This document shows positions 38,126 to 56,874 of a DNA stretch of 64,000 nt, one piece after another (positions within the stretch are counted from its first letter, which is position 1; each line of letters begins with the position of its first letter). Source of the DNA: Flavobacteriales bacterium (GTDB lineage Bacteria > Bacteroidota > Bacteroidia > CAIKAF01). A model generated the notes under the pieces. That model worked only from the letters and a program-made list of their open reading frames with translations, had not been told where the DNA came from and ran no database searches. The stretch covers positions 41,714 through 105,713 of the forward strand of contig JANWWQ010000002.1 in NCBI GenBank assembly GCA_025055635.1, given 5' to 3'. A program made the position numbers and the translations under genes.

Positions 38126-40978
38126 TTAAGGCTTCACAAATTTTCCCCGGGTCTGTATGCCGTTGGTGAGGTTAACCAAATTGATACAGTAAACGCCTGA
38201 AGCCAAAGGCCGTACGTCCACATTCAAAAGGTCGTGGATGGTCTGACCCCGTAACACTTCCTTTCCGTTCATGTCCATCACCGTGTAGTTCCAGCGACCT
38301 TGGGAAGGCATCACCACATGGACCACATCGCTGGAGGGATTGGGATATATCAACAAGTCACTGGCAGTGGTAGGGTTAGAAGCCGGCGGCAGATTGACCA
38401 AGTTCCCCTTAAACACGGGTAACTTAAGATGGGTGGGATGCTCCGGGGAGAAATGTACACGGTTTACAGCAATGCGGGGCGCCATCTCTACTCCCATGTA
38501 ATTATAAGTACGGCCATCCCCTGGGCTGCGACGGAAAAATTCCCCGGGCATGATTGGCAGGTTAGCATCTGACTGGAAACGTCTGTAGTTACTGCTGCTG
38601 ATGAGCACTTTCATTTTGTGTCCCTTGCCAAAAACATAGGCAATGGGGAACATCTGGAAATGAAATTCATAGATTTGACCTATTTCAATATTGTCCCAGG
38701 GAGCATTATCATTTTCCTGGCCCATGGCTATGCTTTTGGCATAGTGACGGGCTCGGGCATTGACACCTCCTTCAATGACGTAGAATTGGCGACCATCGGG
38801 GTACACATCCACAATCCGCACATAAAATTCCGTGCTGGTGGGCCCGCTGGTAAGCCCGGCCGGGTTGCTTTTGGCATAGAGCACCGCCTGAGGGAAGCCA
38901 ATAATGCTTAGAGGCTCCTGCAACACTTCGGTTTCAAACTGAATTACACCTGGATGATCCATCGTGTACTTGGCCCAAGGTACCAGGTCACATTGGCCTT
39001 GGGTCACCTTGCTGCCGTCGGGAAACTTTTCAATCATGTTTCCCCCGCCCACAGTGCGTACTGGATTATCAGGGTCGTGTAAAATCATCTTGTAACCCTC
39101 GTCATGGGTGGGAGGAGACTGGTCCACGCGACCGTTCTGATGTAAATAAAAATTTTGCCACTCAATATCCTCTTTCAGCGGGAAGGTATCGGCTTCAAAC
39201 CAGTAGTTGCCAATGTTAGCATTCTCAGGAATACCATCGTTCACGGGACCTATCAGGTAAAAACGGACATCCTTCACCTGGCGAAAATCCTTGTAAGGAA
39301 TTGGGGTGATTTGTCCCCCATCAAATTCCGGGATGACGGGAGAACCGAGGGCTGGTACATCCACAGTGAAGTCAAGTTCATTATTCAATAAATTTTCTTT
39401 CACTTTGATGGGAACATCTTGAAGGCCCCCTACGCCATTAAGGAAATTGAGCAAGTCGGTGAAACTGAGTAAATAATCCTCACTTGGAATCTTCACAGAA
39501 ACGATGCCTAGGTTAATCCAGGAGTTAGATTTAGGCAGGCGGGCCTTAGGTTCGCCTAAAAAATAGGCACTGTCATAATTCAGATTGTAACGGAACCAGC
39601 TTATCACTTCGCTGTTGATGGCCTTAGAGATGGGCAGATTATCAGAGCTGAAATCATCCAGGGCAAAACCGATGATGTCAGCCACGTTGGGGGGATAAGT
39701 GATATCACAGGTGGTACGGGCGCCTACCGTTTGATGGGCCCAGGGCCCGATGACAAGTTTCTGAAGGTATTTGGCTTTTCCATTGGGGTTAAGATGTTTT
39801 TTCATGAAGGCCCACGTTTCAATTTGACCATCGGTAAAAATATCCCACCAACCGGTGAGGTGATAAGCAGGCACCTCCATGTTTGTGTAGCGGCTGAAGC
39901 CGCCATTAGGATCGCTTTCTCCCAGGGCATTTACAGGAGCCCGCGAAGCGTCCATGTCTGCGCGCCCTATTGAATTCGGGTAATATCCAGCAGGCCCACC
40001 TCCGTATCGGATTGTGGAGAAGTGATCAATTGCTCTTCTGGCGGCTTCAAACTTATTGGGCAAACCATAATCAGCCGCAGTATGAATGTTATTATCCAAA
40101 CTGCTGTCAATATCAATGAGGTCGTCATTGCAGCCGGTGAAAATCATACCTTTCAGCCATCCGTTCACTAGCTGATCCCTGAAACATCCGTTGTGATATC
40201 CGGTGCTTTTGTAGAATTCCTGGGTGGCCACAATGGGCAAAAGGCACTTGAGACCGGGTTGGGAAGGATCTATTTTCCGGGCGGCCGCTGCCTGGTATTG
40301 GCTATATCCCATTGCCGAAGCTCCAAACATGCCTACGCGGCCATTACAAAGTTTATCGGTGGTTTCTTTTATTCCGTCGCCATCCAAATCGTATTGCCAA
40401 TCCAAGTTTAGGAGACCTTGAATGGTATTATAGCCATCTTCGTGGTTATTGGCATTGGCGGGATCGTCCAAAGGTCTTATATCCAGAATATGCCCATGGT
40501 TGGGATGGTATGGCCCCTTTTTCCAGCTATCGCTATGAAGAGGAAAGTATACCCCCTCAGAAGTATATCGGCCTCTATTATCCTGCACGGCATATACGTA
40601 GCCCAACAGACAAACGGGCACCGCAGTCTCGTCAAAATCTCCGATACCATAGGGCATCCGCATAAGTATTAATGGTAGCTTGAAAGGATTGGGATTTGGC
40701 TGCCCGTTTACCTGGTCGTATACGAGGATTTGCTGGCCGCGCGGTAACACAGGTAATTTAAAGGTCTGGTTGATGATGGGTACCTGAATATCCACCAACA
40801 CGCAATCTTGCAGAATAGGTTGATAGATATCCGTCGTTAAGCGTATCCCATCAGGCATGGGTAAGAGAACTCTTGTTTTGGTCACCAGTTCCTTGATGTC
40901 GTCAATTTTCCCATTGAGCACTTGACCGAAGGCGGGTACGTAAAAAACGAGGGAGACAAGAAGTAGGAATCTTTTCAT
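38126..40978 (-). CDS. Secreted S15/CocE-type hydrolase with T9SS C-terminal sorting domain
   Basis: This 950-residue protein has a signal peptide (MKRFLLLVSLVFYVPAFGQ). Next comes an X-Pro dipeptidyl-peptidase/CocE-NonD type alpha/beta hydrolase domain. The nucleophile elbow GASAMG, the aspartate block TGWWDIFTDG and the histidine block VIGPWAHQ form the expected Ser-Asp-His triad. A C-terminal beta domain follows. The last about 75 residues (LLIYPNPSSDVVHV..LASGVYCINLVN..GKFVKP) are a type A sorting domain for type IX secretion. Relatives cleave dipeptides, amino-acid esters or beta-lactam side chains; the substrate is unknown here. Confidence 0.9.
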   Translation of the reverse strand: MKRFLLLVSLVFYVPAFGQVLNGKIDDIKELVTKTRVLLPMPDGIRLTTDIYQPILQDCVLVDIQVPIINQTFKLPVLPRGQQILVYDQVNGQPNPNPFKLPLILMRMPYGIGDFDETAVPVCLLGYVYAVQDNRGRYTSEGVYFPLHSDSWKKGPYHPNHGHILDIRPLDDPANANNHEDGYNTIQGLLNLDWQYDLDGDGIKETTDKLCNGRVGMFGASAMGYSQYQAAAARKIDPSQPGLKCLLPIVATQEFYKSTGYHNGCFRDQLVNGWLKGMIFTGCNDDLIDIDSSLDNNIHTAADYGLPNKFEAARRAIDHFSTIRYGGGPAGYYPNSIGRADMDASRAPVNALGESDPNGGFSRYTNMEVPAYHLTGWWDIFTDGQIETWAFMKKHLNPNGKAKYLQKLVIGPWAHQTVGARTTCDITYPPNVADIIGFALDDFSSDNLPISKAINSEVISWFRYNLNYDSAYFLGEPKARLPKSNSWINLGIVSVKIPSEDYLLSFTDLLNFLNGVGGLQDVPIKVKENLLNNELDFTVDVPALGSPVIPEFDGGQITPIPYKDFRQVKDVRFYLIGPVNDGIPENANIGNYWFEADTFPLKEDIEWQNFYLHQNGRVDQSPPTHDEGYKMILHDPDNPVRTVGGGNMIEKFPDGSKVTQGQCDLVPWAKYTMDHPGVIQFETEVLQEPLSIIGFPQAVLYAKSNPAGLTSGPTSTEFYVRIVDVYPDGRQFYVIEGGVNARARHYAKSIAMGQENDNAPWDNIEIGQIYEFHFQMFPIAYVFGKGHKMKVLISSSNYRRFQSDANLPIMPGEFFRRSPGDGRTYNYMGVEMAPRIAVNRVHFSPEHPTHLKLPVFKGNLVNLPPASNPTTASDLLIYPNPSSDVVHVVMPSQGRWNYTVMDMNGKEVLRGQTIHDLLNVDVRPLASGVYCINLVNLTNGIQTRGKFVKP

Positions 40979-41088
40979 ATGAGCAAAGCTTATTCAGGCC
41001 GAAAGTAAAAAAAAAAATTACAAAAATTTTTTTGGGATTATTTGCAACCCCTTCCGAAAAATTTCGTTCTCAAAAATGGAGTAGTCAT

Positions 41089-41118
41089 TTTATTTTTGTA
41101 CAATTTATTTTTGTACAA
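41089..41118 (+). repeat. Tandem 15-bp promoter/operator repeat before the ECF sigma gene
   Basis: TTTATTTTTGTACAA is repeated perfectly head-to-tail (41089-41103 and 41104-41118). Each unit contains TATTTTTG (the TAnnTTTG box) and ends in the 8-bp palindrome TTGTACAA. A related string, ATTTATTGTACATAATGAAAAT, occurs at 42134-42155 on the other side of the sigma gene. Duplicated -7 boxes overlapping a palindrome suggest regulated initiation. Confidence 0.6.
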
Positions 41119-41196
41119 TGAAAATTTAGCCTATCGCCCACTGATACCTTAATACGGCATTAAATACTGGATTTTTACCCTCTTACAGTTGGGCCT

Positions 41197-55186: not shown

Positions 55187-56281
55187 ATGTCACTTTCAGA
55201 GCTTACGCTTTGGTTGAGTGGGCTGGCATTTTTGTTGGCAGTGGTCGGATGGTATTTGCCGGGGTTGCGCATTCTTACGGCCCCACCGGTTTATCTTCAG
55301 CAGGAATATCCACCTGTTTCTGTGATTGTGGCTGCCCGCAACGAGGCCCGGCATTTGATGGGGCTTCTACAATCTCTGCTAACTCAACAATACCCTGATT
55401 TTGAGGTGATTTTAGCCTTAAACGGCTGTCAGGATGAGAGTGTAGCCCTGGCCCGACGTGTGGCAGACAAAGACCCTAGACTGAGGGTCTTAGAGCTATC
55501 AGAAGCTGGAAAGAAAAAGGCCATAGAGCAAGCTATAACCTGTGCCCGCTATGATGTTTTGCTGTTTACGGATGCGGATTGTCAACCTGCCAGTCCTTAT
55601 TGGATCAGGGAGATGGCTGCTGCGTGTGTGGAGCCCTTTGCAGGGGTCTTGGGTTATAGTCCCGTGAGGCCAGGCAAGGGATTTCTGAATGTTTTGGCAC
55701 GGTTTGACCACTTTTTGGTGGCTTTACAGTATTTGGGGGCTGCGGCCTGGGGCCGGCCCTTTATGGGCGTGGGGCGCAACCTGGCCTACCGGCGCTCTGT
55801 GTGGCAGGCTGTGGGAGGTTTTTCGGCCCATTCCGACCTGGCTTCAGGAGATGATGATTTACTAGTCCAAGCGGCGGCACGCCGGTTTCGTTTTCAGGTC
55901 CAATGGCATCCAGAATCTTTTGTCTTCACAGAAACGCCTAGTTCGTTGGGACAGTTTGTACGTCGTAAAGCCCGACACTTCACTACAGGATGGCGGTATC
56001 ACTGGTTGCCCTTATTCTTTTTACAAGCCCACTTCTGGGGACGGCTGGGAGTATGGCTTTCTCCGGCCGCATTGTCCCTGACAGGTTGGCCATGGTATCA
56101 CGCGATGTTTTTCTTAATGTTTTACTTGCTCATGAGCCTTTGGCTATGGAAAGCAATTTCCACAAAACTCTGTGAAAAACATTTGGTACGGTACGGAATT
56201 GGCTGTGATATGTTGCTTACGTTTGTATGGCTGGTGGCAGGGGTGCTAAGTCTATTCAGAAACTCCACAAAGTGGACCTGA
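55187..56281 (+). CDS. Membrane-bound family 2 glycosyltransferase
   Basis: This 364-residue enzyme has an N-terminal transmembrane helix (ELTLWLSGLAFLLAVVGWYLPGL). The GT2 domain has SVIVAARNEARHLMGLLQSLLTQ, the donor-site FTDADCQP and SGDDDLLVQAAAR. C-terminal hydrophobic segments follow (LSLTGWPWYHAMFFLMFYLLMSLWLW and CDMLLTFVWLVAGVLSLF). It resembles processive-type or lipid-linked sugar transferases. Its 3' end overlaps the sigma factor ORF. Confidence 0.86.
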   Translation: MSLSELTLWLSGLAFLLAVVGWYLPGLRILTAPPVYLQQEYPPVSVIVAARNEARHLMGLLQSLLTQQYPDFEVILALNGCQDESVALARRVADKDPRLRVLELSEAGKKKAIEQAITCARYDVLLFTDADCQPASPYWIREMAAACVEPFAGVLGYSPVRPGKGFLNVLARFDHFLVALQYLGAAAWGRPFMGVGRNLAYRRSVWQAVGGFSAHSDLASGDDDLLVQAAARRFRFQVQWHPESFVFTETPSSLGQFVRRKARHFTTGWRYHWLPLFFLQAHFWGRLGVWLSPAALSLTGWPWYHAMFFLMFYLLMSLWLWKAISTKLCEKHLVRYGIGCDMLLTFVWLVAGVLSLFRNSTKWT

Positions 56282-56874
56282 GTCCTAAGTTTACGGGGCG
56301 TTCTCGGGAAGATTATCTCCTGGTCCTGAGAGCTGCCGAACACAATGACAGTGCAGCTTTTGCGGAGCTCCTCCGGCGTTACAAAGAACCATTATTCTAT
56401 ATGTTCCTGAAAATTACCGGTCGCCAGGAAGATGCCGAGGACCTTACGATTCTCTCTTTGACCAAAGCTTTTCAAAATATTCGCAATTACCGGCCTGAAT
56501 ATCCATTTGGTACTTGGCTTTTCCGTATTGCCACTAATACAGGCATTGATTTCCTGAGGAAGAAAAAACTGGCCACAACTTCTTTGGACCAGTATCATGA
56601 ACAGGAAGACGGCGATCAGCTCAAGCCTCAGATAATCTCGGAAGACCTGACCCCTGAAGAAGAATTGATTTTAAAAGAACGCGCAGAAATTTTGAAGCAA
56701 ATCATCCAGAATCTGAAACCTCGCTATCGTATGTTAATGGAACTGCGCTATTACGAACAACTTACTTACGAGGAAATCGCGGACCGGATGCATTTGCCAG
56801 TGGGCACGGTCAAAGCCCTGCTTTTTCGCGGTCGCATGCTCATCGCTCAGACGCTTGGTAATGTAAAACCCTAG
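56227..56874 (+). CDS. ECF-type RNA polymerase sigma-70 factor
   Basis: Region 2 (AFAELLRRYKEPLFYMFLKITGRQEDAEDLTILSLTKAFQNIRNYRPEYPFGTWLFRIATNTGIDFLRKKK) and region 4 (LKPRYRMLMELRYYEQLTYEEIADRMHLPVGTVKALLFRGR) are clear. DLSPKFTGRSREDYLLVLRAA resembles the N-terminus of a conserved Bacteroidota sigma group. The ATG at 56227 would overlap the glycosyltransferase gene by 55 nt. A GTG at 56272 (VDLSPKF) would reduce this to 10 nt and fits the family better. No anti-sigma gene is adjacent. Confidence 0.9.
   Translation: MAGGRGAKSIQKLHKVDLSPKFTGRSREDYLLVLRAAEHNDSAAFAELLRRYKEPLFYMFLKITGRQEDAEDLTILSLTKAFQNIRNYRPEYPFGTWLFRIATNTGIDFLRKKKLATTSLDQYHEQEDGDQLKPQIISEDLTPEEELILKERAEILKQIIQNLKPRYRMLMELRYYEQLTYEEIADRMHLPVGTVKALLFRGRMLIAQTLGNVKP

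Follow-up and report, generated by a model that had tools for sequence, protein, structure and literature searches.

In the window, by which we mean the whole 64,000-nucleotide stretch of Flavobacteriales bacterium DNA analysed here, a gene for an ECF sigma factor is preceded by a short leader and by an exact tandem repeat (Table 1). Its neighbours encode an X-Pro dipeptidyl-peptidase with a type IX sorting tail, a nucleoside phosphorylase and a universal stress protein, so the remark in the initial annotation that no anti-sigma gene lies adjacent holds. Nor did an anti-sigma-like gene recur among the neighbouring ORFs of at least 110 aa in the orthologous loci. Orthologs of the sigma factor (E <= 1e-40) were found in 202 of 217 Bacteroidia genomes, nearly always as one gene per genome, and in 58 of 118 genomes sampled from the phylum; among the genomes listed, only G115 has two sigma-family matches at E <= 1e-40 (C1:4368686-4369246 and C1:350516-351058). 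The usual order in the named genomes, using names assigned from the sequences, is a divergent uvrA, the sigma gene, a convergent nth and a bcp-like peroxiredoxin gene, and it was seen in many orthologous loci (L035-L114). This order may hint that the sigma factor is tied to DNA repair or oxidative stress. In the window, the ancestral order around the sigma gene has been lost. The window also contains a second ECF-type sigma gene (56227-56874, + strand, 215 aa), which overlaps the end of a glycosyltransferase-like ORF and whose product shares about 32% identity with the first in the part that matches.

Table 1. Features of the sigma locus in the window, with the basis or detail of each assignment
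Feature	Position	Strand	Basis or detail
X-Pro dipeptidyl-peptidase with type IX secretion sorting tail	38126-40978	-	divergent from sigma gene
Imperfect -33 element, TTC (TTG expected)	41067-41069	+	spacer 21 before box 1; sequence and ortholog spacer histogram
Repeat copy 1	41089-41103	+	-7 box TATTTTTG 41091-41098; palindrome TTGTACAA 41096-41103
Repeat copy 2	41104-41118	+	box TATTTTTG 41106-41113; palindrome TTGTACAA 41111-41118; no -33
Leader motif GCCT-ATC	41129-41135	+	AUH triplet is ATC, 41133-41135; ortholog comparison
Possible mini-ORF ATC GCC CAC TGA	41133-41144	+	putative, from sequence; weak frame statistics in orthologs
Predicted hairpin 5' arm GCCCACTG	41136-41143	+	own-arm duplex -12.5 kcal/mol, best 1% of swaps
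Conserved TAC	41145-41147	+	near-invariant in orthologs
Predicted hairpin 3' arm CAGTTGGGC	41186-41194	+	ends 2 nt before start codon; not the minimum-energy fold
ECF sigma factor, 198 aa	41197-41793	+	Pfam Sigma70_r2 and Sigma70_r4_2

The repeat consists of the 15-mer TTTATTTTTGTACAA present twice, exact, directly adjacent and head to tail, which confirms the initial description of a tandem repeat with TAnnTTTG boxes and 8-bp palindromes before an ECF sigma gene. In each copy the box TATTTTTG fits TAnnTTTG and overlaps the palindrome TTGTACAA. The repeat is unlikely to have arisen by chance, as no other perfect adjacent repeat in the 64-kb window has a unit exceeding 10 bp, and 12 dinucleotide shuffles of the window yielded zero or one perfect adjacent repeat of any unit from 10 to 60 bp. 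Two other perfect tandem repeats in the window, at 2607 and 36507, have 10-bp units. A search of the whole genome with the 15-mer returned these two exact matches and two further matches with one mismatch each, and thus none of the additional exact copies for which the initial annotation had suggested looking; a single-target operator would not need more. The combination of box and palindrome (TANNTTTGTACAA) likewise occurs only at these two sites genome-wide. In the sole other genome of the genus compared (G001), the sigma gene is kept and both the repeat and the TTGTACAA palindromes are absent, which is the pattern that the initial annotation had named as counting against its proposal, in a relative whose sigma protein is only 70% identical. 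As TTGTACAA is also not conserved in the ortholog promoters and no further site in the genome joins box and palindrome, a repressor operator is unsupported, and the best reading of the repeat, also the simpler one, is a tandem duplication, confined to this species, at a promoter of the housekeeping type. A tiny ORF (ATG AAA ATT TAG, 41118-41129, + strand) at the end of copy 2, directly before the leader motif, is probably due to chance.

The identification of a Bacteroidota-type -7 box at this locus was borne out by the orthologs, 49 of 158 of which carry TAnnTTTG 15-75 nt upstream of the leader motif described below, compared to 8.1 expected from shuffles. These boxes peak at -50 to -30 relative to the motif, and 39 of 55 ortholog boxes have a TTG at a spacer of 19-21 nt. 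Both repeat copies contain the TAnnTTTG box, and neither has TTG at that spacing. Copy 1, whose box falls within the ortholog peak at -42 relative to the AUH triplet and is preceded by a TTC at spacer 21, is the likely promoter, an assignment we consider well favoured even though, judged by its -33 sequence, the region is only promoter-like. The box of copy 2, at -27, falls outside the peak and has neither TTG nor any -33, and this copy is probably located at the predicted transcription start or downstream of it. Compared to the Bacteroidota housekeeping promoter (TTG-N19-21-TAnnTTTG), box 1 and its position are alike, and the differences are the TTC and the duplicated box. Of the proposed doubled promoter and operator, through which the sigma factor or a repressor would control transcription via the boxes and TTGTACAA, the promoter part therefore stands for copy 1, which adjoins the gene as part of an exact repeat and sits at the ortholog promoter position. 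The missing -33 of copy 2, together with palindromes that are absent in G001, not conserved in ortholog promoters and joined to no other box in the genome, speaks against the remainder, and we regard this model as very unlikely.

The seat of control seems to be the transcribed leader and not the repeat. Across 110 orthologs, inspection of the upstream regions revealed a shared element composed of (GCC)T-AT[A/C/T]-G, a gap of about 7-12 nt, TAC, a variable loop and a segment complementary to the 5' arm, and in the orthologs this complementary segment holds the ribosome-binding region and the ATG. The AUH triplet is AUA, AUC or AUU and never AUG in 158 of 158 accepted leaders. The site score rewards A, T and TAC and so imposes part of the invariance of A and T; it leaves the third base free, and the absence of G was therefore not imposed. 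In the first set, five sites were moved by hand onto ATA and eight leaders that offered no confident site were excluded by hand, one of them L030, which has ATG at its best-scoring place; in the second, a rule shifted off-register sites to the closest AT, and seven leaders of low confidence were excluded by hand. The third base was A65 C17 T7 G0 in 89 nonredundant leaders, A56 C13 T2 G0 in 71 independent leaders and A119 C30 T9 G0 when pooled, and G makes up about 3-25% of nearby, less constrained columns. A near-cognate triplet thus stands in place of AUG in all 158 leaders, as would be expected of an IF3-sensitive non-AUG site.

Several features around the triplet resemble those of a start site. 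A Shine-Dalgarno sequence lies 5-8 nt before AUH in 19 of 89 leaders and in 15 of 71 independent ones against a background below 4% (3.8% for the independent leaders), at a spacing resembling that at the real start; about 80% of leaders have none there, and Bacteroidia mRNAs mostly lack one (PMC8710568, PMC9976891). Its co-occurrence with a Shine-Dalgarno at the ATG was significant in the first set (p 2e-6) and did not replicate in the second (p 0.77). U occupies -1 of AUH in 90%, and an A-rich stretch at -10 to -14 lies near the adenines at -12/-13 that have been discussed for Flavobacterium (PMC6847099). Position -3 counts against a start site, being mostly C and not the A by which initiation is favoured in Flavobacterium (PMC6847099). 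A literature search for support of U at -1 through tRNA A37 or an extended anticodon gave nothing usable.

The mini-peptides encoded from AUH are not conserved across leaders, and 13 of 158 frames continue beyond the real ATG, both of which count against initiation at the triplet. None of these 13 frames is that of the ATG, and an N-terminally extended sigma factor starting at AUH was therefore rejected. Closure before the ATG is modestly in excess, at 92% compared to 83% when frames are opened at other ATH triplets of those leaders, and base-pairing between CATAA and the start codon may be the reason why ATA GCA TAA is common. Searching for a second gene with this leader gave no other convincing hit in the genome, using a sequence-only model that the same fold with another sequence could escape. 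Rfam covariance models matched no family in 15 loci, giving four unrelated sub-threshold hits.

Automatic whole-leader alignment with MAFFT and RNAalifold, which places the arms in columns with gaps and therefore yields no structure, was replaced by an arm-swap test and a motif-anchored covariation test. In the arm-swap test, 89 leaders paired with their own arms at -11.2 kcal/mol, compared to -6.9 for permuted arms (z -16.4), with z -13.5 among the 65 leaders below 65% identity and z -15.2 in an independent set of 68, all three values being uncorrected for kinship; a control segment upstream gave z 0.9. In 60 leaders whose register was fixed only by the TAC and GTA motifs, the covariation score was 0.309, compared to 0.146 in shuffles, and was reached by 0 of 500 shuffles, again uncorrected for kinship, while the best slid register gave 0.196. 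All eight pairs outside the anchors changed on both sides, including the pair adjoining TAC, which is U-A in 20 and C-G in 16. These comparisons make it highly probable that a hairpin is shared across the class.

Across the orthologs, the start region is unpaired at 0.26 with the native leader, compared to 0.44 with a shuffled leader (p 5e-20, uncorrected for kinship), the helix reaches the start-codon region in 82%, and its first paired base mostly lies at +4 or +5 from AUH. Sequence comparison therefore indicates that the 3' arm masks the start region in most orthologs, and what is found across the class, weakly in the window species, is a helix between leader and start region carrying compensatory changes, as in a masking leader. 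Masking of this kind, with a moderate mean duplex energy of -11.5 kcal/mol, would also suit an RNA thermometer, in which a mostly A/U-rich helix over the start melts with heat and needs neither a ligand nor upstream initiation. As a thermometer would leave the conserved AUH, the UAC and the upstream Shine-Dalgarno unexplained, and no Rfam thermometer family was matched in the 15 loci, we consider this explanation improbable.

Although well supported across the class, the hairpin is only weakly supported in the window species itself. There, the minimum-energy fold of the longer RNA sequesters the start codon in a local hairpin that extends into the coding region, and shuffled sequences fold just as stably. 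The congener G001 has a start region that looks open, and its own arms rank 0.98 among swaps. A hairpin that is weak in the window species and not evident in G001, together with the restriction of the repeat to the window species and the loss of the ancestral gene order, is what would be seen if the repeat were a neutral product of replication slippage and the leader had decayed in the genus, leaving box 1 to drive transcription and translation to proceed without leader control. Such decay fits poorly with the retention of AUH and UAC in both species and with the window's own arms falling in the best 1% of swaps, and it appears about as improbable as a thermometer.

Our preferred account combines a duplicated repeat at an ordinary promoter with a masked start codon in the leader that is gated by the ribosome, and we put it forward tentatively, as somewhat short of an even chance. 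Copy 1 would supply the -7 box and copy 2 would mostly lengthen the start of the transcript, with the sigma gene controlled post-transcriptionally by the conserved 5' leader RNA. At rest, the segment just 3' of AUH would pair with the ribosome-binding region and the start codon, and little sigma factor would be made. Binding of a 30S subunit at AUH (AUA, AUC or AUU, in some leaders preceded by a Shine-Dalgarno of its own) would occlude the 5' arm, hold the hairpin open and free the real start. As the helix starts beside the triplet, a ribosome at AUH and a closed helix could hardly coexist, which is an argument from geometry and not proof that the site is used. The level of sigma factor would then report not on an anti-sigma factor but on the state of initiating ribosomes, be it start-codon stringency, IF3 or how accessible the anti-Shine-Dalgarno is. 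We infer that initiation occurs at AUH, along with the sign of its effect, the signal and the continued working of the weak window hairpin in this manner. Taken by itself, the AUH step is doubtful. The broader proposition, that an initiating ribosome switches a partnerless, class-wide sigma factor through competition between a non-AUG leader start and a masking hairpin, so that the sigma factor reads stringency or ribosome composition, is more doubtful still.

The same leader could act in a different way, with a hairpin that masks the start and is stabilised or opened by an RNA-binding protein or small RNA bound at GCCUAUAG...UAC, in which case AUH would not be a start codon. This would account for conservation at the base of the helix beyond what pairing demands, for the persistence of AUH and UAC in G001 where no hairpin is evident, and for a third base of AUH that is not free, A exceeding C and C exceeding T. 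It leaves unexplained the Shine-Dalgarno at ribosomal spacing before AUH and the exclusion of G, and we judge it rather unlikely.

ECF sigma factors are commonly restrained by anti-sigma proteins, and the gene described here occurs once in nearly every Bacteroidia genome searched, and the loci examined show no anti-sigma gene beside it. Masking of the start by a conserved leader is a testable mode of control and may explain regulation without a partner inhibitor. The AUH site points to a possible connection with the state of the ribosome, in a class where ribosomes largely disregard Shine-Dalgarno sequences. Neither gene nor leader was found described in the papers searched, and it is this conserved leader, free of Rfam matches in the 15 loci, that we regard as the finding worth keeping.

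Among known systems, RNA thermometers and other leaders that mask the ribosome-binding site are alike in having a start-region helix kept by compensatory changes, to which the sigma leader adds the conserved AUH and UAC and its lack of an Rfam match in the 15 loci. The triplets AUU, AUC and AUA are near-cognates against which IF3 discriminates, and the AUU start codon of Escherichia coli infC is autoregulated by IF3. The AUH triplet of the sigma leader is one of these near-cognates; infC is a different gene with no upstream leader site and no such conserved hairpin. Flavobacterium rpsU, which encodes bS21 and is autoregulated by ribosomes lacking bS21 (PMC9976891), resembles the model proposed for the sigma leader in coupling translation to ribosome state in the same class by means of a Shine-Dalgarno that most mRNAs there lack; its Shine-Dalgarno is extended (9-13 bp), whereas those of the sigma leaders are short, occur in a minority and are accompanied by a masking hairpin. 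The closest parallel comes from Streptomyces sigR, in which IF3 acts to repress a GTC start codon (PMC5472188), and in both cases the output of a stress sigma factor would depend on a non-canonical start codon. In sigR the odd codon starts the sigma factor itself, whereas here, with dependence on IF3 hypothetical, it would belong to a distinct site in the leader, upstream of an ordinary ATG that is masked.
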